From Nitrosarchaeum sp. (GTDB lineage Archaea; Thermoproteota; Nitrososphaeria; Nitrososphaerales; Nitrosopumilaceae), in the NCBI GenBank assembly GCA_025699025.1, contig JAILWJ010000002.1, positions 186,001 through 250,000 of the forward strand: a DNA stretch of 64,000 bases. Direction: 5' to 3'. Under the pieces are notes generated by a model, which saw nothing but the letters and a program-made list of their open reading frames with translations, did not search any database and had not been told where the DNA came from. This document shows positions 53,882 through 64,000 of this stretch, piece by piece; the first letter of the stretch is position 1; each line of letters starts with the position of its first letter. The position numbers and the translations under genes are program-made.

Positions 53882-53958
53882 GGGTCTATGGCGCAGCCAG
53901 GTAGCGCACCGGACTCTTAATCCGGTTGTCGTGGGTCCGAATCCCACTAGACCCGCCA
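53882..53958 (+). tRNA. tRNA-Lys (anticodon CUU) with encoded CCA; integration target
   Basis: The cloverleaf has acceptor GGGTCTA/TAGACCC, anticodon stem CCGGA/TCCGG with loop CTCTTAA (anticodon CTT), and T arm GTGGG-TCCGAAT-CCCAC. The discriminator is G and CCA is encoded at 53956-53958. The recombinase gene begins 43 bases downstream, and GACCCGCCA from the tRNA end recurs at 53980-53988, so the 3' half is the likely attachment site. Confidence 0.95.
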
Positions 53959-53970
53959 TCCTTATTGGTC

Positions 53971-53978
53971 TTAAAATA
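53971..53978 (+). promoter_or_regulatory. TATA box of the integrase gene
   Basis: TTAAAATA lies between the tRNA-Lys and the recombinase, about 27 bases before TTG 54001. It argues against the longer reading frame that runs back into the tRNA. Confidence 0.5.
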
Positions 53979-54000
53979 CGACCCGCCACATTATGTATCA

Positions 54001-55401
54001 TTGAAGATAAACTATGATGACATCAACAGCAGAAACAATCCATACCAGTTATTCTTGGATAACATCAAGAGTCCAGAGACTGCAAGAAAATACAAAAAGA
54101 TGCTAGAGAGGTTTCTGCTATCCATTCCAGATCAGGTATATGAAAATACAAAGGTAAAGTCAGATCTTAAAAGCATGGTAAAGCATTTTGTTGCCCTTGC
54201 AAAAAAGAATCCAGATTTGGCAACTGACATCATTGCAACATACATCAAAGAGGAAAAGAAACTGGTAGAATCAGGACTATTAAGTTCAGGAACACTAGAG
54301 AATCATATCAAGCCAATCAAGGTGCTACTTGATGCAAACAGAATCGCCATACACTGGAAGTCACTGTACAGGCTGTACCCAAGAAAGCAGAGCACCACAA
54401 ATGACAGGGCATACACAAGAGCAGAACTGCAAAATATGCTAGAGGTTGCACGAGACCTCACAGACAAGGTGATAATTACCGTATTCTCATCAGGGGGATT
54501 CAGGCTAGAGGCGTGGAACTATTTTACATGGAAGGATATCAAACTGTTCAAAAATCAAGACGGTTCTCACAAGGGAGGAGCCTTGTTAGTATACAGTAAT
54601 GACGAGGAGAGCTACTGGACTCACATCACTCCAGAGGCTTGCAAATACGTGGAGATGTACCGAGAAAAATGGAAGTCTGACATTGGGGTTTATCCAAAAG
54701 ATGATCAGCCGTTTCTAAAGGCAGTAAAGTATCCCACTATCCACAGGCTGAATTCAACTGGCGTCAAAAAGAGAATCGGAAAAATTGTAAAGGCAATCGG
54801 TATGCGAGATTCATTGCCTGAAGGCAAGAAGAGATACGAGGTTCCACTAGATCACGGGTTTAGAAAATATTTCAACACCATGATGAGGCGTGCCAAGGTA
54901 AACTATCTGGACAAAGAGGACATGATGGGACACAAGGTAGGATTGGAAAAACACTATGAGCGATATCAGGAAGAGGACTTTGAGCGATTCCCCGAGTATC
55001 AAAAGGCAATAGCATTTCTTACCATATCAGATGAGGACAGGCTACGCTTTGAGAACCAGCAAAAGCAAGAGATACTAGATGAGGTTACGCAGAAAGACTA
55101 TCAGATTGAAGACATGTCAGCAAGACTAAGCGAGGTGGAAAACGAGGTGAAAAACGGGCGGAACACAAGATGGAACTCACTTTTCCAAGAATCTTTCAGA
55201 CATCAAGACAATGAGAAGGTACAGCTGATTCTTACCCTGTTGCACATGTGGTTTGAGATGAGGGCAACAGAAGAGGAAAAACAAGCGTTATGGAAGAAGC
55301 TCCAAGACGCAAAAAAGGAAGGAAAACCACTAAACATCATGGATATGTTAGATCCAGACAAGGATGAGCTTAGCTGGAAGAACCTCTACTCCAAAAAGTA
55401 A
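54001..55401 (+). CDS. int: Tyrosine recombinase (integrase)
   Basis: This protein has about 466 residues and starts at TTG 54001 (MKINYDDINSRNNPYQ). An N-terminal core-binding domain (SPETARKYKKMLERFL) is followed by the catalytic domain: Arg in SSGGFRLEAW, HxxR in LDHGFRKYF, His in MGHKVGLEKH and the nucleophile in KHYERY. A coiled tail of about 90 residues follows. It would insert or excise DNA at the adjacent tRNA-Lys. The gene is complete, so the element may be mobile. Confidence 0.93.
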   Translation: MKINYDDINSRNNPYQLFLDNIKSPETARKYKKMLERFLLSIPDQVYENTKVKSDLKSMVKHFVALAKKNPDLATDIIATYIKEEKKLVESGLLSSGTLENHIKPIKVLLDANRIAIHWKSLYRLYPRKQSTTNDRAYTRAELQNMLEVARDLTDKVIITVFSSGGFRLEAWNYFTWKDIKLFKNQDGSHKGGALLVYSNDEESYWTHITPEACKYVEMYREKWKSDIGVYPKDDQPFLKAVKYPTIHRLNSTGVKKRIGKIVKAIGMRDSLPEGKKRYEVPLDHGFRKYFNTMMRRAKVNYLDKEDMMGHKVGLEKHYERYQEEDFERFPEYQKAIAFLTISDEDRLRFENQQKQEILDEVTQKDYQIEDMSARLSEVENEVKNGRNTRWNSLFQESFRHQDNEKVQLILTLLHMWFEMRATEEEKQALWKKLQDAKKEGKPLNIMDMLDPDKDELSWKNLYSKK

Positions 55402-55430
55402 ATCCAATCATTCTCTACATCGATACAAGT

Positions 55431-55447
55431 CGTTAATCGGATTAACG
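55431..55447. repeat. Perfect 8-bp inverted repeat
   Basis: CGTTAATC, one G, then GATTAACG. It lies 30 bases after the recombinase stop. Candidate protein-binding site. Confidence 0.6.
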
Positions 55448-55479
55448 CTACTTCTTACAACCATGCAAGACCCATTTTT

Positions 55480-55655
55480 TGTAGAGGTCGTTAGGCATGA
55501 CGTGTTAGGCATGAATAGTAGATGTAGAGGTCACGAAGTCCAGATGTAGAGATTGTTAAAGATTGTAATGCCTAACGATATGTTAACAGCCGTTAATAGT
55601 GCATAGTCGTTAGAGATATCATTTGTAATAACATGTAGAAAAATTCACGCCTAAC
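55480..55655. repeat. Cluster of direct and inverted short repeats (iteron-like)
   Basis: GTTAGGCATGA occurs at 55490 and 55504 (14-base spacing). Its inverted core occurs as ATGCCTAAC at 55568 and GCCTAAC at 55649. TGTAGAGGTC occurs at 55480 and 55523, with a shorter TGTAGAG at 55545. Confidence 0.7.
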
Positions 55656-55886
55656 GTTAATGTATAATGTAAGAAGTGTTAAACCTGACGCCATATCTGA
55701 CACAATCTGTCAGGCTTTACGTACAAAATAACATCATTCTACTCTTTCAAAATTTGTCTAAGTGTCAGATCATTACATAATAGAAAATTAATTTTGAGTT
55801 TTGATTTGAGTTTTTTATTTTTGGTATAACCTTGTTTTAGATAGATTTAGTGATGGATTAAACGGAAATAAAATTTTAAGAAATAG

Positions 55887-56198
55887 TTAATCACTAGTAA
55901 AAAGTCGATTGGGTAATTTTTCACCAAACATCTGTATAGATTCAGAGATCATGTAAAGCATATTTCCTTTCAATACTCCTACCGGAATTTTTTTCTCTTT
56001 ACACAAATTTACAAAATCTACATCTTTAGTGACTATTGCAAAACCGTATTTTTGGGCAACTTTTACAATATCTTCATCAGCAATACCTTCAGGTAATTCT
56101 TCATGGTGCCCTACGCAAATAAGTTCATGTTCTTTTTCAATTTCTGCCCTATTGCTAAGATATTGTCCCTGACAATGAACATCAAACAATAATTTCAT
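55887..56198 (-). CDS. DUF5615-like PIN-domain protein, possible toxin nuclease
   Basis: This 103-residue protein begins MKLLFDVHCQGQYL and has acidic residues at the PIN-like positions: D6, IADEDIVKVA and VTKDVDFVNL. DUF5615 proteins are small predicted RNases often paired with an antitoxin. No antitoxin is obvious next to it. It is the last gene of the seven-gene minus-strand run, 35 bases after the GIY-YIG gene. Confidence 0.7.
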   Translation of the reverse strand: MKLLFDVHCQGQYLSNRAEIEKEHELICVGHHEELPEGIADEDIVKVAQKYGFAIVTKDVDFVNLCKEKKIPVGVLKGNMLYMISESIQMFGEKLPNRLFTSD

Positions 56199-56233: not shown

Positions 56234-56728
56234 TCAAATTCGTGACGGTTTTCCTACGGTTTTATTCCACAAAGGTTTCAGATTTATGATTAATTCGTGT
56301 TCAATGTTGTATCTATCTTTTGTTTCAAGAAAGTATAGTTGAATTTTTTCCTGTGATTTACTGCATCTTAGAATTTCTGAATTAATTCTGCAGTTTGTTG
56401 GCTGACCTCTCTCAAAACAATTTCTAGGCGAGATATTTCCATATCCCATAAAAAATCTCTTATGAAAATCATCACATTCTCCAACATATTGGATTTCATC
56501 ATTGACTAATATTATGTATACTCCAGATTTACCAGAAAATTTCCTATCTATAGTGAACTTACAAAATGGACCTTTCCCATACTTGTTTAGAGGAAGATTC
56601 TTTTTATTTTCATATCTTTCTTGAGGAAAGAATTCAATTGGAATCTTGTTTTCATCAGTTATTGGAATGATCTGACAAACATGATCAAATCTCCAGTCAT
56701 TTATTTTGATTTGAGGTAAAATAGTCAA
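56234..56728 (-). CDS. GIY-YIG nuclease-like protein
   Basis: This is a 164-residue protein. SGVYIILVNDEIQYVGECDDFHKRF (shown in two halves: SGVYIILVNDEIQ, YVGECDDFHKRF) matches the GIY-YIG core with the pattern GVY-x9-YVG, followed by an Arg on the next helix. The N-terminal 65 residues form a separate domain that may bind DNA. TTG start. The catalytic Glu could be in EHELIINLKPLWN. It probably cuts DNA. Confidence 0.72.
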   Translation of the reverse strand: MTILPQIKINDWRFDHVCQIIPITDENKIPIEFFPQERYENKKNLPLNKYGKGPFCKFTIDRKFSGKSGVYIILVNDEIQYVGECDDFHKRFFMGYGNISPRNCFERGQPTNCRINSEILRCSKSQEKIQLYFLETKDRYNIEHELIINLKPLWNKTVGKPSRI

Positions 56729-57090: not shown

Positions 57091-57447
57091 CTATTTTCCC
57101 TGTCCTATGGCCTTTGCCAATTCAGAGTATGATGACTTCCTGTGATCAATCTCAAAGACTACAATCTTTTCAATAGGTTCATAGATTATCTTGTAGACAA
57201 TGCGATACTTGTTTCCAAGATAATGAATGGATCTGAATCCTGGAAAATTTGCCTCGAGTTTTTCTCCAATGTATGGATTTGTTTGAAGTTCCTCAAGATA
57301 GTTTTCTGTCCATTTTTCTAGAATCTTGTCTTTTTTGATTAATTTGAGGTACTTTTTCTCACAATATTCAGTGAGATTTACCTCAAATTGAGGATGTTTT
57401 GCCTCAATTCCTGTTTGCACTTGGTTTTTGATATTATCAACCATCAT
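57091..57447 (-). CDS. RelE/ParE-superfamily toxin-like protein
   Basis: This is a 118-residue protein. The C-terminal 85 residues show the fold order of RelE/ParE: two helices (YLKLIKKDKILEKWTENYLEEL), then NPYIGEKLEANFPGFRSIHYLGNKYRIVYKI and VVFEIDHRKSSY. ParE-type proteins inhibit gyrase and RelE-type cut mRNA; which applies is unknown. The short upstream gene is the candidate antitoxin. Confidence 0.75.
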   Translation of the reverse strand: MMVDNIKNQVQTGIEAKHPQFEVNLTEYCEKKYLKLIKKDKILEKWTENYLEELQTNPYIGEKLEANFPGFRSIHYLGNKYRIVYKIIYEPIEKIVVFEIDHRKSSYSELAKAIGQGK

Positions 57448-57477: not shown

Positions 57478-57681
57478 TTATACATGAGGTTCATCTCCCA
57501 TGCCTTCATGATGCATAACGTGAGTCATCATATCCACACATCGCTCAATGTCATGAATTGGAGCAACTAATCTGTTATCTGAGATTTTGAATCTATCAAG
57601 ATAGTCATTTACAATCTCCAATTTTGCATGACATTCAGCAACTGCATTGTAAAGTATTTCTTCAATGTCTTTGTATTCCAT
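57478..57681 (-). CDS. Small acidic protein, candidate antitoxin
   Basis: This 67-residue helical protein (MEYKDIEEILYNAVAECH ...) has a His/Met-rich end (MMTHVMHHEGMG). Its start shares one base with the stop of the HerA gene, and it lies 30 bases before the RelE/ParE-like gene, the usual antitoxin position. No DNA-binding motif is obvious, so the antitoxin role is inferred from position. Confidence 0.55.
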   Translation of the reverse strand: MEYKDIEEILYNAVAECHAKLEIVNDYLDRFKISDNRLVAPIHDIERCVDMMTHVMHHEGMGDEPHV

Positions 57682-59771
57682 TACTCAATCTCCTCTGGCA
57701 ATGCTTCTTTGTTGCCAATGTATGGAATCTTTAGTCTTGCATTGATTGGTCCCTGGTTTTCACGATTTACTTTAATTGAGATTCTACAGTAACCAGTAGG
57801 TAGTGAGTTAATCTCAGAGACATACTCTTTTCCAAAGTAATCACGAATCCATTTTTCAGAACCAGACAAACCAAAAGCAACTTTGGTATTTGTCAAGTCA
57901 CCAACTTTCTTTGAGACTTCAGTTGGAAGATGAGTTACTAGTGTTACACCATATTTTCTCTTTCTTCCTCTATTTGTAATGTCTTCCATTCTTTCTGCAA
58001 TTCTTTGAACAAAGTCTTTCTCACCTTTTGATGGACTTTGTGGGAATAGTTGTTCAGCCTCATCAATTACAAGTAATACTCCTGGATCTACGTTTGGAGT
58101 ATTCATCTTGTATTGGTCTAAGAGTTGAAGCAAATACAAGACAACAACTCTTTTCATGTTATGGTCAAGGCTATGATAATCAATCACAGTAATTGAGCCA
58201 GGTTTGAATAGAAGTTGAGGAGTAAGTGGAGTCTTGTCTTTTTGATCAAGCATGTTCAAACTTGGTGAGAGAACGGCTCTAGCTATTGCGGGTCTTTGTG
58301 AGATATGAACTAGACTTGAGCGATTTACTTCAGCTAATAGTCTTGTTCTTAGTGTCTCAATATCTTGTGGAGCTTGTTCTTGATCAATTTGGTTTCCGAC
58401 ATGACTGATCAGTAGGCGTAGTATGTTTTCAGTTCTTGATTCTACTTCAGGCATAAGATAGATTGTATCTTGTCTAGAGATGCCACGAAGACTAAGTGTA
58501 GCGTCAGATTTTACAGGATCCTTGTGTAAAGAGTAGATTTTAGGCTTGATGTCACCTATTCCATACTTTTCAAGGAAGTTAATTGATGATTGTATCATCT
58601 CTGATTTTTTAGCAAAATCAGTGTACTCGGGTTCCCCATCCAGAATAATTACTGCAGGTCTCTTATCTGCAGGAATATGCTTGTTAGAACAAAGGCTCTT
58701 TACCATTAATTTGATAAAGTTTGATTTTCCTTTTCCTTGAACTCCTGCTACTAACATTGATTGATAGATTGTATCCATTGGCTTTAGTGGATACAAAAAT
58801 GGTTCACCACCACCATTGTAGTCTAGTTTACCAATTGGCATTCCAAAGTCTGGAATGTTTAGGACATCTAGAAGTTCTTTATCAGATGGCCTTCTGATGA
58901 TAAATCCTGACAGGTCTGTGGGTCTTGGTCTTCCATCATAGTCTGCTGCAACTTCTCTGAGTGGTCTGAATAGTACATGTGTTACTACCTCAGAAAACTG
59001 ATGTACATAACCCCCGCCGGATAGTGGATTCATGTTTATCTTTGCCACACGAGAAAAGATCTTCTTTTGTTCTTCCTGGTTTTCTAAAACCAAGATATCT
59101 AATGGTTGAACTGTCTTTGCATGTTGTTCATACAGAAATCCCTTGATTTCGTCTTGTTCTTGTTCTGATTTTAGTACATATTGATCCTTTTTGCTAAACA
59201 AAACCTTTCCAAGAATTGTCTCATCGATCTTATCATTTCTCTCAGTTAGTTTTACTGAAACAATCTCTTGTGGTTTCTTTGGCAGTAGTTCTGGTCCTTT
59301 CACTATAACATCAATACAAGGAATTTCATAGTCTTGTTCTGCTTCAATTTGTGCCTTGATAGAATCAAATTCGTCTTCAGTAGATGGCGAGAAAACCCAT
59401 GCAACACTTCTTTGTGGGTCTTGCTTTACTACAATGTCATAGTGACGATTATCAGCTAATCTCGCAGATATTACAATTCCATCAAATACATCGTATGCTA
59501 GATAACCATTGATGAATTTCTTGTCTTGAGATAATGATTCAGCAAGAAATGTTATGTTAGCAACTTGTTCTTTGAGTGCTTTTCTGATTGCTTCTTTTTG
59601 CTTTGAATTTTGGTATTTGACCTTAATATCTGAGGCTAATTTCTTTACAGATGCCTTTAACTCATGAAGTTTGGTCTGTTTTTGACCATCCTCTAAGATT
59701 TGACATAATCCGTTATAGAAATATGCCTGGGCACAACGTAAATCATTTTTTTGTAGTAGACTAGTTTGCAT
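57681..59771 (-). CDS. HerA/FtsK-family DUF87 ATPase, DNA translocase
   Basis: This protein has about 696 residues and starts MQTSLLQKNDLRC; an upstream ATG at 59795 would deepen the overlap with the nuclease gene. The N-terminal part is charged and helical with a likely HAS-barrel region. Walker A is AGVQGKGKSN near residue 345, Walker B LLVIDEAEQLFP near 570, and the later TNRGRKRKYGVTLVTHLP carries sensor and arginine-finger residues. HerA hexamers pump DNA to a partner nuclease. The Cas4-like protein next to it is the natural candidate. Confidence 0.88.
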   Translation of the reverse strand: MQTSLLQKNDLRCAQAYFYNGLCQILEDGQKQTKLHELKASVKKLASDIKVKYQNSKQKEAIRKALKEQVANITFLAESLSQDKKFINGYLAYDVFDGIVISARLADNRHYDIVVKQDPQRSVAWVFSPSTEDEFDSIKAQIEAEQDYEIPCIDVIVKGPELLPKKPQEIVSVKLTERNDKIDETILGKVLFSKKDQYVLKSEQEQDEIKGFLYEQHAKTVQPLDILVLENQEEQKKIFSRVAKINMNPLSGGGYVHQFSEVVTHVLFRPLREVAADYDGRPRPTDLSGFIIRRPSDKELLDVLNIPDFGMPIGKLDYNGGGEPFLYPLKPMDTIYQSMLVAGVQGKGKSNFIKLMVKSLCSNKHIPADKRPAVIILDGEPEYTDFAKKSEMIQSSINFLEKYGIGDIKPKIYSLHKDPVKSDATLSLRGISRQDTIYLMPEVESRTENILRLLISHVGNQIDQEQAPQDIETLRTRLLAEVNRSSLVHISQRPAIARAVLSPSLNMLDQKDKTPLTPQLLFKPGSITVIDYHSLDHNMKRVVVLYLLQLLDQYKMNTPNVDPGVLLVIDEAEQLFPQSPSKGEKDFVQRIAERMEDITNRGRKRKYGVTLVTHLPTEVSKKVGDLTNTKVAFGLSGSEKWIRDYFGKEYVSEINSLPTGYCRISIKVNRENQGPINARLKIPYIGNKEALPEEIE

Positions 59772-60678
59772 GATTTGCACCCCCAAACAAATCAAATCTT
59801 TGATCAGATCCTTGTAAGAGTCTGTCTATCCATTCAATCTCACCTTGTTCACGAGCAAGCTTAAAACATTGTTCTCTTGCATAACAATGTCGACATTTTG
59901 CAGCATCTTCTTTAGGTAACATTGGAGGAATTTCTGCTCTTTCAATTAGTTCTCTTGCAGTTGTAATCTTTTCGATAAGTTGGATTTTTTCATCTACATT
60001 TGCTTTGAATGTTTCATAAGATAGGTCTTGTGTGTAAAATATTCTAGCTTCTGGAGCTGGTATATCAAAGTTTTCTTCAAGCATTATGCAGTAACATAGA
60101 AGTTGTGTCTTGTGTGAATCTTTTTGTAATAGTGTTTTGAACTTTGATTGATGTGTCTTGATGTCTTCTGGTATTATGTATATGCCATCATTGTAAATTG
60201 CATCAACTCTTCCATAAAGACCAAATTTGTTACTGAAAACTTTTTCTTCAGTCTTCCAGGGCAACATGACAGATACAATATGATCTATGCTAAATCCTTC
60301 ATGAAGTAATTTTAGCATATTTTTTTCTTGTATTGCTAACCATAGATCTAGTCGGTATGTTAGATCCTGCATGTATTTTTTAAGATCTAGTGCATGTGAT
60401 GGATGATTCTCAAGTGATAAATTAAACACATGAGAAAGGGTTCCATTAATAGAATCTTGACTAATTGCACTCAATGTAGTTGCAGGTGACCATTCTCTCC
60501 AAGCAACATCAAAGGCTTCAGCCAAAAGTCTCCAGGCCTCATGCTCAACGTTTCCTTGAACTGTAGGAAGATTTGAGATAAAACCGTGTTGTGGCATTGT
60601 TTTGTTGATAAAAAAAAGTCTTGGGCAGTATGCCATTGCTGCCATATTTGTGGGAGTAAGTGCTAATGATGATTGCAT
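59761..60678 (-). CDS. Cas4-like PD-(D/E)XK nuclease with Fe-S cysteines
   Basis: This is a 305-residue protein. N-terminal AYCPRLFFINK holds the first Fe-S cysteine. The nuclease core has VDAIYNDGIYIIPEDIKTH (GxxD, then ExK-like D-I-K) and a downstream QLLCYCIMLEE helix. The C-terminus KCRHCYAREQC gives three more cysteines. This is the Cas4/AddB arrangement. No CRISPR or other cas gene is nearby. Its end overlaps the HerA gene by 11 bases, implying a joint complex. Confidence 0.83.
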   Translation of the reverse strand: MQSSLALTPTNMAAMAYCPRLFFINKTMPQHGFISNLPTVQGNVEHEAWRLLAEAFDVAWREWSPATTLSAISQDSINGTLSHVFNLSLENHPSHALDLKKYMQDLTYRLDLWLAIQEKNMLKLLHEGFSIDHIVSVMLPWKTEEKVFSNKFGLYGRVDAIYNDGIYIIPEDIKTHQSKFKTLLQKDSHKTQLLCYCIMLEENFDIPAPEARIFYTQDLSYETFKANVDEKIQLIEKITTARELIERAEIPPMLPKEDAAKCRHCYAREQCFKLAREQGEIEWIDRLLQGSDQRFDLFGGANHAN

Positions 60679-60876: not shown

Positions 60877-61857
60877 GTGCCTCAAACTAAAGAGATTCCT
60901 AGACTGTCAACGTCTGAGATGGATGAAATTGTATTTGAGACAATTAAACAAAATCCCGGCTCAACTTCTCGTCAAATTAGATTAATCCTGGAAGATGATC
61001 CTAGAGGTATTTTCAAAGAATCATTCTTGATCAATTCACTAAAACGCTTAGAAGAAGAACAAAGAAGAATTGTTAAACGAGCAAAAAAGGAATTTGAACA
61101 TGGAAAAATTGTAAGGAAGTATTTTGTTAGAGATGAAGATTCAGAATTTCAATTTCATTTAAAACTAGGAAAAGATATTCTTGAAGAAATAATTGAGTAT
61201 AATTCAAATCAGAGAATTTTTGCATTTGCTACTGGTAAAAAAACAATAGCCATAGCTTTAGAAAATAATGAGTATTATAAAAAAACTGCAAAGTTTTATG
61301 AGTCATTAGAAAAAATGGAAGAAAACGATTTAGTAAAACTCAGATTTCCTGATGTATTCGTTGAATTTTATGGACTTATACCTCATAGTTACTCAATTCA
61401 ATATCTACCACCTGATGAAAACAAAGCAATAAGAATTGAAATTATAGAGAATGTAGAATCACAGAAAGATTATGAACCAAAAAAAACAAAAAGGATTTTA
61501 ATTTTAGAAGATGAAGAAGATTATTGTGAAGATTTAGTAACTCGATTAGAAGATGAAGGTCATATTGTTGAATATGCAAAAGATATCACCAGTTTTTTAG
61601 AAAAACTTGAAAAAAAATCATTTGACTTTGTATCTATAGATAAAAGAATTGTAAGTGAAACTGATGAAAAAAATATTGCAGGCAAGATGTTCTTTGAGGT
61701 TTTAAAAGCATGTCCCAATGCAGAGGTTGGTCTTTTAACGAATAAATTAGAAAAATCAGAAGAAGATTATTTTACAAAATTAGGGTTTAAGACGATTTTA
61801 AGAAAAAAAGAAAAACGGACAGGAGATCAATTAGTTAAAATTTTAAGAGCATTATGA
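60877..61857 (+). CDS. Winged-helix response regulator with C-terminal receiver domain
   Basis: This 326-residue protein starts at GTG. Residues 8-75 form a winged helix (MDEIVFETIKQNPGSTSRQIRLIL ... LINSLKRLEEE). Residues 85-195 are an unknown alpha/beta domain. Residues 207-325 are a receiver domain with acidic pair LEDEED, phospho-acceptor Asp in VSIDKRIV, Thr in GLLTNK and Lys in ILRKKE, all intact. Its stop overlaps the start of the dual GHKL protein by one base. DNA-binding output is at the N-terminus, the reverse of most bacterial regulators. Confidence 0.82.
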   Translation: MPQTKEIPRLSTSEMDEIVFETIKQNPGSTSRQIRLILEDDPRGIFKESFLINSLKRLEEEQRRIVKRAKKEFEHGKIVRKYFVRDEDSEFQFHLKLGKDILEEIIEYNSNQRIFAFATGKKTIAIALENNEYYKKTAKFYESLEKMEENDLVKLRFPDVFVEFYGLIPHSYSIQYLPPDENKAIRIEIIENVESQKDYEPKKTKRILILEDEEDYCEDLVTRLEDEGHIVEYAKDITSFLEKLEKKSFDFVSIDKRIVSETDEKNIAGKMFFEVLKACPNAEVGLLTNKLEKSEEDYFTKLGFKTILRKKEKRTGDQLVKILRAL

Positions 61858-64000
61858 TGAGTCACAAAGAGAGATTTAGAGTAACAGGAAAAATTACTAG
61901 ACTTTTAGGAAGGGAATCCGTGGCAGATCCAGTTGTAGCGTTATTTGAAGTAATTAAAAATTCTCATGATGCAGATGCATTATCAGTTCACATAAAATTT
62001 GACACAATTAGTGGAAATAATAAAATCATCATAAAAGAGAAATTTGGAGATGGAATGACATATGAACAAATCAAAAATGATTTTTTAGTCATAGGGACTT
62101 ATGCTAAACAAGCAATAAAAGGAAGACCAAAAAAAACTAGGAGGTTAAAAAGACCAATGATGGGTCAAAAAGGAGTTGGTCGATTTGCATTGGAAAAATT
62201 AGGTAGCAAGGCAACAATTATCTCAAAACCAATTGGAACATTAGATAAATTTACGTTTACAATTGATTGGGATAGATTTGAGCCTGAAAATGTTACTGTA
62301 GATATGATTCCAATTACCATACACAAAGATAAAAGAATAGATAAAAAAGATTCAGGACTAGAAATTGAAATAAAAGGGTTAAGAGACAATTGGACATCTC
62401 AAAAAATTAAAGAATTAATTACTTATTTACAAAGTTTCATATTACCGAGACAACTTCAACCAAGAAATTCATTCAATATTGAGTTAGAAGCTCCAGCTCA
62501 AGGAATAGAAAAAAGAGAGATAGATCCTCAATTAGATGAGAAAGCATTTTTTAGTTTATCCGTTAACTATGCAAAAAATGCAGATCATTTTCTAATTAGC
62601 GCAGAAAAAATGGGAAGATCATACATCAAAAAACAAAAAAGAGAAACATTTCGTTCTCATTTAACTGGAGAGATAAGAAATGTTTCAGATCTAAAATGTG
62701 GACCTGTGAAATTGTATGTTTATTATTTTCCAACATTTAAAAAAGCTGAAAAATATCCACAACTAGAAGAGGAGTATTATAGAAAAGCCATTGACTACTA
62801 CACAGAAATGTTTTATAATCAAATACCTGAAATCATGCAAGATAAACAGGGAGTCAAAATTTATCGTGCTGCAGGTATAAGAGAGTTCCAATATGGAGAT
62901 CCCGGGAATGATTGGGTCGATAGAGGAAAAATTAGCAGAAATCTAGCAGGAACTATGCAAGCAGATAGGATTATTGGATTTTGTATTTTACCGAATAATC
63001 CAGAAATTATTGCAACTACGAATAGAAGAGAAGCTGTTGAGAATGAGGCTTTCTTAGATTTAAAAGATTTAGTAATTTCATCCATGAAGATTTTAGATCA
63101 AAAAATTAGTGATGATAGAGCCAAATTATATGCTGAAGCAAAAGAAGAAGATGAAAAAAATAAAGAAAAATTAAAAAATGAATTAACAGAAATTTTAGAA
63201 ACCAAAACAGATGAGTCAGAAAAAACACAACAATATAAAAATGAAATTCTTACTAAAGCAAAAAAAGTCATAGATGAAAGTCTTAATGAGGAAGAAACGG
63301 AGACTACAATTAGAGAAATAGAATTAGCTCATGCAATTGTTGGACATTTTATTTCAAAATTATATCATGATTTTGTTGCATCAGGAATTCAAACAATTAC
63401 TAATCAAATTGGAATTTTAGAAGATCATGTTAAGGGAGTTAGTCCTAGAACTCCTGATAAATTAGAATCAGTGATAGAGAAATTAAGAAAAAAATGGGAT
63501 AAAATTTCAATAATTTTTGATGCACTTGATAATATAGAACGTGGTGTAGGTGTTGAAAATTACTATAAAAGAGAAAAAGTGGACATTCTGGTAAAAGATG
63601 AAATCCAGACAATTTTTGAAGATTTACAAGAGCTTACAGGATTTGATAATATTTTATTGGAGAACAAGATAAATAGAAATTTAGAAATTTGGACATATGG
63701 ACCAATATTTTATTCAATTGTGTATAATCTATTAACAAATTCATTGAAAGCATTAATGAAAAGTAAGCCAAAAGATAGAGAAAATTGGATTTTTGTAAAA
63801 TCAGAAGTTGATGAAAAACATCTAAAATTAATTTTTGCAGATAATTCTACAATTCCAATTCCTGAAAATAGATGGAAAGTGGTTTTTGATCCCTGGATTT
63901 CTACCACTACAAGAATTGATAATAAGAAATTCAGAGGTAAAGGAATTGGTTTATCAATATGTAAAGAAATTTTGAAATTTGTAAAAGGGGAAATTAGTAT
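61857..64000 (+). CDS. Large sensor-kinase-like protein with two GHKL ATPase modules (3' truncated by window edge)
   Basis: The frame is open from ATG 61857 to the right edge, about 714 residues. The N-terminal GHKL/MORC-like ATPase has ALFEVIKNSHDADA (N box), GDGMTYEQI and GQKGVGRFALEKLG. A central region follows, then a charged coiled coil (about 420-480). A possible H box in SKLYHDFVASGIQTI precedes a histidine-kinase ATPase with YNLLTNSLKAL (N box) and GKGIGLSICKEI (G box). There is no membrane segment, so it is a cytosolic sensor. It is coupled to the response regulator gene just upstream. Confidence 0.8.
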   Translation, partial: MSHKERFRVTGKITRLLGRESVADPVVALFEVIKNSHDADALSVHIKFDTISGNNKIIIKEKFGDGMTYEQIKNDFLVIGTYAKQAIKGRPKKTRRLKRPMMGQKGVGRFALEKLGSKATIISKPIGTLDKFTFTIDWDRFEPENVTVDMIPITIHKDKRIDKKDSGLEIEIKGLRDNWTSQKIKELITYLQSFILPRQLQPRNSFNIELEAPAQGIEKREIDPQLDEKAFFSLSVNYAKNADHFLISAEKMGRSYIKKQKRETFRSHLTGEIRNVSDLKCGPVKLYVYYFPTFKKAEKYPQLEEEYYRKAIDYYTEMFYNQIPEIMQDKQGVKIYRAAGIREFQYGDPGNDWVDRGKISRNLAGTMQADRIIGFCILPNNPEIIATTNRREAVENEAFLDLKDLVISSMKILDQKISDDRAKLYAEAKEEDEKNKEKLKNELTEILETKTDESEKTQQYKNEILTKAKKVIDESLNEEETETTIREIELAHAIVGHFISKLYHDFVASGIQTITNQIGILEDHVKGVSPRTPDKLESVIEKLRKKWDKISIIFDALDNIERGVGVENYYKREKVDILVKDEIQTIFEDLQELTGFDNILLENKINRNLEIWTYGPIFYSIVYNLLTNSLKALMKSKPKDRENWIFVKSEVDEKHLKLIFADNSTIPIPENRWKVVFDPWISTTTRIDNKKFRGKGIGLSICKEILKFVKGEIS

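Follow-up and report, generated by a model that had tools for sequence, protein, structure and literature searches.

The tRNA-Lys(CTT) gene in the analysed window very probably marks the left end of an 11.58-kb integrative element that carries its own recombinase, is bounded by the same core at both ends and has 2 sisters with unrelated cargo in the same genome, one (C3) at tRNA-Lys(TTT) and the other (C1) in a short gap between protein genes. The window is the whole stretch of 64,000 nucleotides (C2:186001-250000) from a genome of 1.71 Mb in 4 contigs, and the element is here called C2. The target gene, called by ARAGORN, occupies positions 53882 to 53958 on the forward strand, and its T-stem 3′ side and acceptor 3′ strand contain the 15-base attL core, TCCCACTAGACCCGC (53942-53956, forward strand). 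An earlier note had placed one end of an element larger than about 10 kb at this gene, had seen no second attachment site up to the window edge and had proposed a downstream search for another copy of the tRNA 3′ end. On all 3 points it was right: a tRNA 3′-end pattern (28 bases, up to 3 mismatches) matches only tRNA-Lys(CTT) itself in the window, and the attR core TCCCACTAGACCCGC lies at C2:251523-251537, 1.5 kb beyond the window edge, the distance from core to core being 11,581 bases. Genome-wide, the same pattern occurs at 3 places, each with a nearly identical integrase gene behind it. Within the element the GC content is 0.29, down from 0.42 to its left (2-kb windows). The tRNA gene ends in GCCA here and in GCTT (GCTA in G022) at the same place in relatives with empty sites; the inserted element would have rebuilt the 3′ end of the tRNA gene, leaving the 15-base core at both of its ends.

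The recombinase is a tyrosine recombinase of 466 aa (54001-55401, forward strand), open from a putative TTG start at 54001 to the stop at 55401 and starting 43 bases after the tRNA gene, as the earlier note had stated. The ORF listed by the program begins further upstream, inside the tRNA gene; we prefer 54001 because the corresponding codon is the start in several homologues, as judged by eye. The claim that all catalytic residues are present also holds, with the motifs GGFR, HGFR, GH and YERY conserved and in the order (R, HxxR, H, Y) expected of the tyrosine recombinase superfamily. All 20 rows of an alignment agree in the HGFR, GH and Y columns, and 19 have the GGFR arginine (the exception, L032, has this segment in another frame). 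Profile matches are distant: the protein scores 19.2 bits against Pfam PF00589, below the cut-off of 27.1, its single NCBIfam match is archaeal XerA (NF040815; 32.7 bits versus a 220-bit cut-off), and its own profile matched no solved structure at E 0.01. It differs from XerA in length (466 aa versus a model of 263 positions) and in being encoded next to a tRNA gene. Unlike the split genes of SSV-type (suicidal) integrases, the gene is intact and lies entirely within the core repeats. As far as the sequence can tell, the best explanation is that the C2 integrase inserted its own element into the 3′ end of tRNA-Lys(CTT).

Just inside the left core lies a subterminal inverted repeat, GGTCTTAAAATACGACC (53967-53983, forward strand), the right arm of which overlaps the second of 2 copies of the 9-base sequence GACCCGCCA (53950-53958 and 53980-53988). 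Both copies had been noted previously and are indeed there, and the repeat is unlikely to be due to chance, since only 77 of 63,800 window positions show a 9-mer recurring within the next 60 bases; the copy at 53980 was nevertheless rejected as the second attachment site, because the 15-base core is what stands at the far site, and because this nearby copy overlaps part of an inverted repeat also known in relatives. Of the 14 relatives with a readable left end, 7 match a strict inverted-repeat pattern there and the other 7 have looser forms, seen by eye; the pattern also gives chance matches at unrelated places. Right-end matches were obtained in C1, C3 and the G021 tandem described below, but the left ends of C2, C1 and C3 have none. 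C1 and C3 carry GGGTCTGAAATTAGACCC at their right ends, and C2 has a diverged form there. The inverted repeats near each end, together with the core, are putative integrase binding sites. Evidence that the inverted-repeat arm covaries with the target tRNA end is weak, with a score of 89 against a shuffled mean of 80.7 (0.86% of 20,000 shuffles as high) in a set of 17 hand-read pairs that were picked by eye from related loci.

Comparison with relatives revealed empty sites for all 3 elements. Among 12 relative loci compared for the C2 site, 7 have the left flank gene at tRNA-Lys(CTT), its protein being 69-97% identical. Three of these 7 (G003, G034 and G017) provide the empty site that the earlier note had sought, with the right flank gene (62, 56 and 55% identical, respectively) located 0.7-0.8 kb from the tRNA gene and no insert; the DNA following the tRNA gene in these genomes corresponds to that beyond the right end here, which confirms that accessory genes start at the tRNA gene. 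In the other 4 (G004, G022, G051 and G058), the stretch examined yielded no right flank gene, and in G004 the DNA after tRNA-Lys(CTT) resembles the flank beyond the C2 right core. When joined without the element, the C2 flanks can be aligned across the core and about 200 bases past it, best with G003, and diverge thereafter. The C1 site carries no insert in any of the 5 gaps read (G003, G004, G017, G034 and G049), the empty gap measuring about 40-47 bases from a small gene to a gene reading as aspartyl-tRNA synthetase; the outer genes are close together in G022 too and on different contigs in G001. For C3, the flank in G004 directly follows tRNA-Lys(TTT), with the match starting from L151:2961, in a gene reading as argininosuccinate lyase. 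In the genome studied here, the C3 element plus about 2.7 kb with a terminase gene separate the tRNA from the argininosuccinate lyase-like gene, and because of this intervening stretch the C3 right flank fails to align directly with the empty sites. The terminase large subunit and a small neighbour are encoded at C3:299866-302059 (L151:366-2559), after the C3 right core and before the following conserved gene, and are probably what is left of a separate, viral insertion at this tRNA.

The sisters measure 10,425 (C1) and 12,725 (C3) bases from core to core. A three-way comparison (blastn at E 1e-5, 20 kb taken per sister locus) yielded only 2 common blocks, an integrase module of about 1.9 kb (96-97% identity) and a right end of 75-81 bp (89-91%) which finishes in the core TCCCACTAGACCCGC in all 3 elements; the DNA in between is unrelated across C1, C2 and C3. 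In C2, the module extends into an intergenic stretch (55402-55839) that is common to the 3 sisters, more weakly from about 55742, and the cargo begins at its end. In each of the 3 pairwise comparisons, the boundary with the cargo occurs at the same point of the backbone on both sides. We propose that the element may consist of a constant module (integrase, left end and right end) and a single cargo slot. No tRNA gene was called at the C1 site, the likeness of which to the tRNA-Lys end is about GAATCCC; the 43 bases past the C1 right core (L017:13185-13227) close with a CTGAATCCC repeat and resemble a worn element end. A fourth copy of the family in this genome lies at tRNA-Met (C3:263561-263634); its integrase (C3:262214-263479) is 48% identical and broken by 1 stop, and a candidate far core with 1 mismatch is found 19.2 kb away, with a cation exporter gene in between.

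The window covers most of the C2 cargo genes we describe. On the reverse strand lie genes for a DUF5615 protein (55887-56198), a 164 aa protein (56234-56728) with no match in the Pfam scan and a weak match to phage/intron endonucleases, putatively of the GIY-YIG type, a ParE/RelE-family toxin (57091-57447), a 704 aa HerA/FtsK-type ATPase (57681-59795) and, overlapping the latter gene, a Cas4-like PD-(D/E)XK nuclease of 305 aa (59761-60678). All NCBIfam matches of the ATPase are under their cut-offs; one is a weak VirB4-like match, and its neighbour is the nuclease, with no conjugation genes beside it. Forward-strand genes encode a 326 aa protein with a C-terminal receiver domain (60877-61857; Pfam match just under the cut-off) and a 740 aa dual-GHKL ATPase protein (61854-64000, continuing past the window as C2:247854-250076), restriction-enzyme-like at its N-terminus and kinase-like at its C-terminus; an N4/N6 DNA methyltransferase follows in the cargo past the window edge. 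The dual-GHKL protein adjoins the receiver-domain protein and the methyltransferase, a possible unusual restriction system. The C3 cargo includes a type IIG restriction-modification protein, an RMMBL hydrolase, an EVE-GmrSD_N-Schlafen protein and HEPN_Swt1, and that of C1 includes cupredoxins, a cation exporter, a winged-helix regulator and a weak HEPN match. Judging from these family names, the cargoes may serve in defence or detoxification. The scans, which took in the cargo ORFs of the 3 elements apart from a few small ones (C2: 74 and 67 aa; C3: 74 and 94 aa; C1: 172 and 63 aa), named no capsid, casposase, conjugation or excisionase gene. Since the scans named no capsid or conjugation gene, transfer between cells probably depends on an outside vehicle.

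The 3 integrase copies are mosaic. At 46 informative sites, C1 mostly agrees with C2, then mostly with C3 and then again with C2, giving 13 runs against a shuffled mean of 28.8 (0 of 20,000 shuffles as low), and the 872 bases after the mosaic region are identical in all 3 copies. Read from the sequences, this pattern supports recombination or gene conversion between the sisters; the assembly of repeats could be a partial source of the identical stretches at the 3 loci. Cargo may thereby be reassorted through homologous recombination of co-resident sisters within the integrase module. We tentatively suggest a minimal archaeal carrier (an integrase, 2 ends and 1 slot) able to reach non-tRNA sites, the sisters of which might swap whole defence-like or metal-handling cargoes via the integrase gene, different cargo behind one integrase type being read here from one genome. 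There is a somewhat better chance, close to even, that 3 elements of the same family entered independently, each bringing its own cargo, and that gene conversion later homogenised their integrase modules without any exchange of cargo. Integrase mosaics are equally expected from such a history, and relatives at other tRNAs carry yet other genes. The cation exporter bears on both sides of the question. It is patchy, being found in 4 of the 61 genomes searched (own genome counted), and its 2 copies here, 88% identical, lie in C1 and about 2 kb behind the broken, 48%-identical fourth integrase, a distribution which speaks against separate arrival, as does the coincidence of the cargo boundaries noted above. 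G047 has a third relative of the exporter, at about 12 kb from an integrase of the family. Conversely, G017 and G025 have the exporter and no family integrase at E 1e-20 (G034 has a distant integrase only), so that the exporter is not confined to this integrase family, as separate arrival would have it. With such different cargoes, the family looks like a general-purpose vehicle for genes of defence-like and metal-handling types.

It is improbable that the elements are decayed proviruses or virus satellites which lost their structural genes. A terminase large-subunit gene just to the right of C3 would favour such an origin, but it lies outside the C3 right core; a pattern scan of viral contigs, limited to close relatives, confirmed no integrase relative, none was found in phage or plasmid records (all these searches possibly leaving out same-genome records), and no structural gene was named by Pfam (most ORFs of the 3 elements) or PHROGs (part of C2 only). 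Equally doubtful is a fixed, immobile genomic island at a stable locus with the integrase as a relic, given that 3 integrase copies are open and retain the catalytic motifs, one of them at a site without a called tRNA, and that several relatives have empty sites, even though the integrase is broken in the fourth copy here and in the relative G032.

With its tyrosine integrase, insertion at a tRNA 3′ end, short attachment site (15 bases here) and size below 20 kb, the C2 element fits the description of the thaumarchaeal cryptic integrated elements (CIE), for which the accessible part of Krupovic et al. 2019 (PMC6563490) gives attachment sites as short as 8 bp (median 17 bp) and sizes mostly below 20 kb. 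That survey covered 74 thaumarchaeal integrated elements, of which 68 have defined sites, in 39 cases in tRNA genes. As in CIE, where restriction, plastocyanin and cation-transporter genes occur and an obvious replication gene is often lacking (PMC6563490), an integrase is combined here with direct repeats at a site-specific insertion (the 15-base core at both ends, and empty sites), and virus capsid, casposase and conjugation genes are absent from the scanned cargo ORFs. What is new with respect to CIE is the triplet with fixed ends and different cargo: the accessible part of Krupovic et al. 2019 (PMC6563490) describes no co-resident set with one integrase module, fixed ends and wholly different cargo, and contains neither 'cargo' nor 'satellite', and the pattern was not found in the portions of the literature searched, which is not proof of its being unpublished. 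By analogy, the C2 family may work like the tycheposons of Prochlorococcus, cargo carriers bordered by tRNA genes and equipped with a tyrosine recombinase (PMC10872708, as far as its accessible part goes); a tRNA-bordered tyrosine recombinase with variable cargo is found here as well, although tycheposons are bacterial and 4-200 kb long, and the likeness is one of organisation and not of sequence comparison. Most thaumarchaeal integrated elements are classed as 'cryptic', and the triplet separates carrier from passenger. Its exact ends and empty sites provide an att pair with which archaeal integration could be tested, and defence genes might be sought in the DNA that separates the integrase module from the conserved right end.

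The integrase family extends well beyond this genome. Matches at E 1e-20 are present in 55 of 151 genomes, own included. Distant matches predominate; the near ones, some of which are partial, have 46-71% identity. Relatives with 47-68% identity are located at Val, Arg, Met and Lys tRNAs of other Nitrosopumilales. Fifteen of the 16 nearest named integrase records are thaumarchaeal, mostly from Nitrosopumilales or Nitrosopumilus, and the remaining one, in an Alphaproteobacteria bin, is probably misbinned; by these nearest relatives, the window is archaeal. A complete tRNA gene lies directly upstream in 9 of 16 relatives (Val in 5, Arg in 2, Lys in 1 and Met in 1) and a tRNA-end-like remnant, seen by eye, in 5 others (weakly so in L029); neither was seen in L025, at a contig edge, or L030. 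Among the 16 entries scanned for far attachment-site copies (3 of which represent the same contig), these were found, within the DNA available for each, only for L020 and L118/L119. The L020 element (strain D17) consists of the integrase alone, with cores at both ends 1,532 bases apart, and in G022 the flanking genes surround tRNA-Val with the element absent. G021 carries 2 family members in tandem, the first of 11.81 kb (cores in L118/L119), with genes resembling restriction-modification systems (translations read, no scan); tandem insertion has been described for casposons (Krupovic et al. 2019, PMC6563490, accessible part). Read in the same way, L118:8993-12423 of the G021 element encodes a GHKL protein and Vsr-like and C5-methyltransferase-like proteins. 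Finally, the tRNA-Lys end occurs twice, about 1.28 kb apart, at G058:C1:1607543/1608818 and G030:C10:2340/3620, possibly marking very small insertions.
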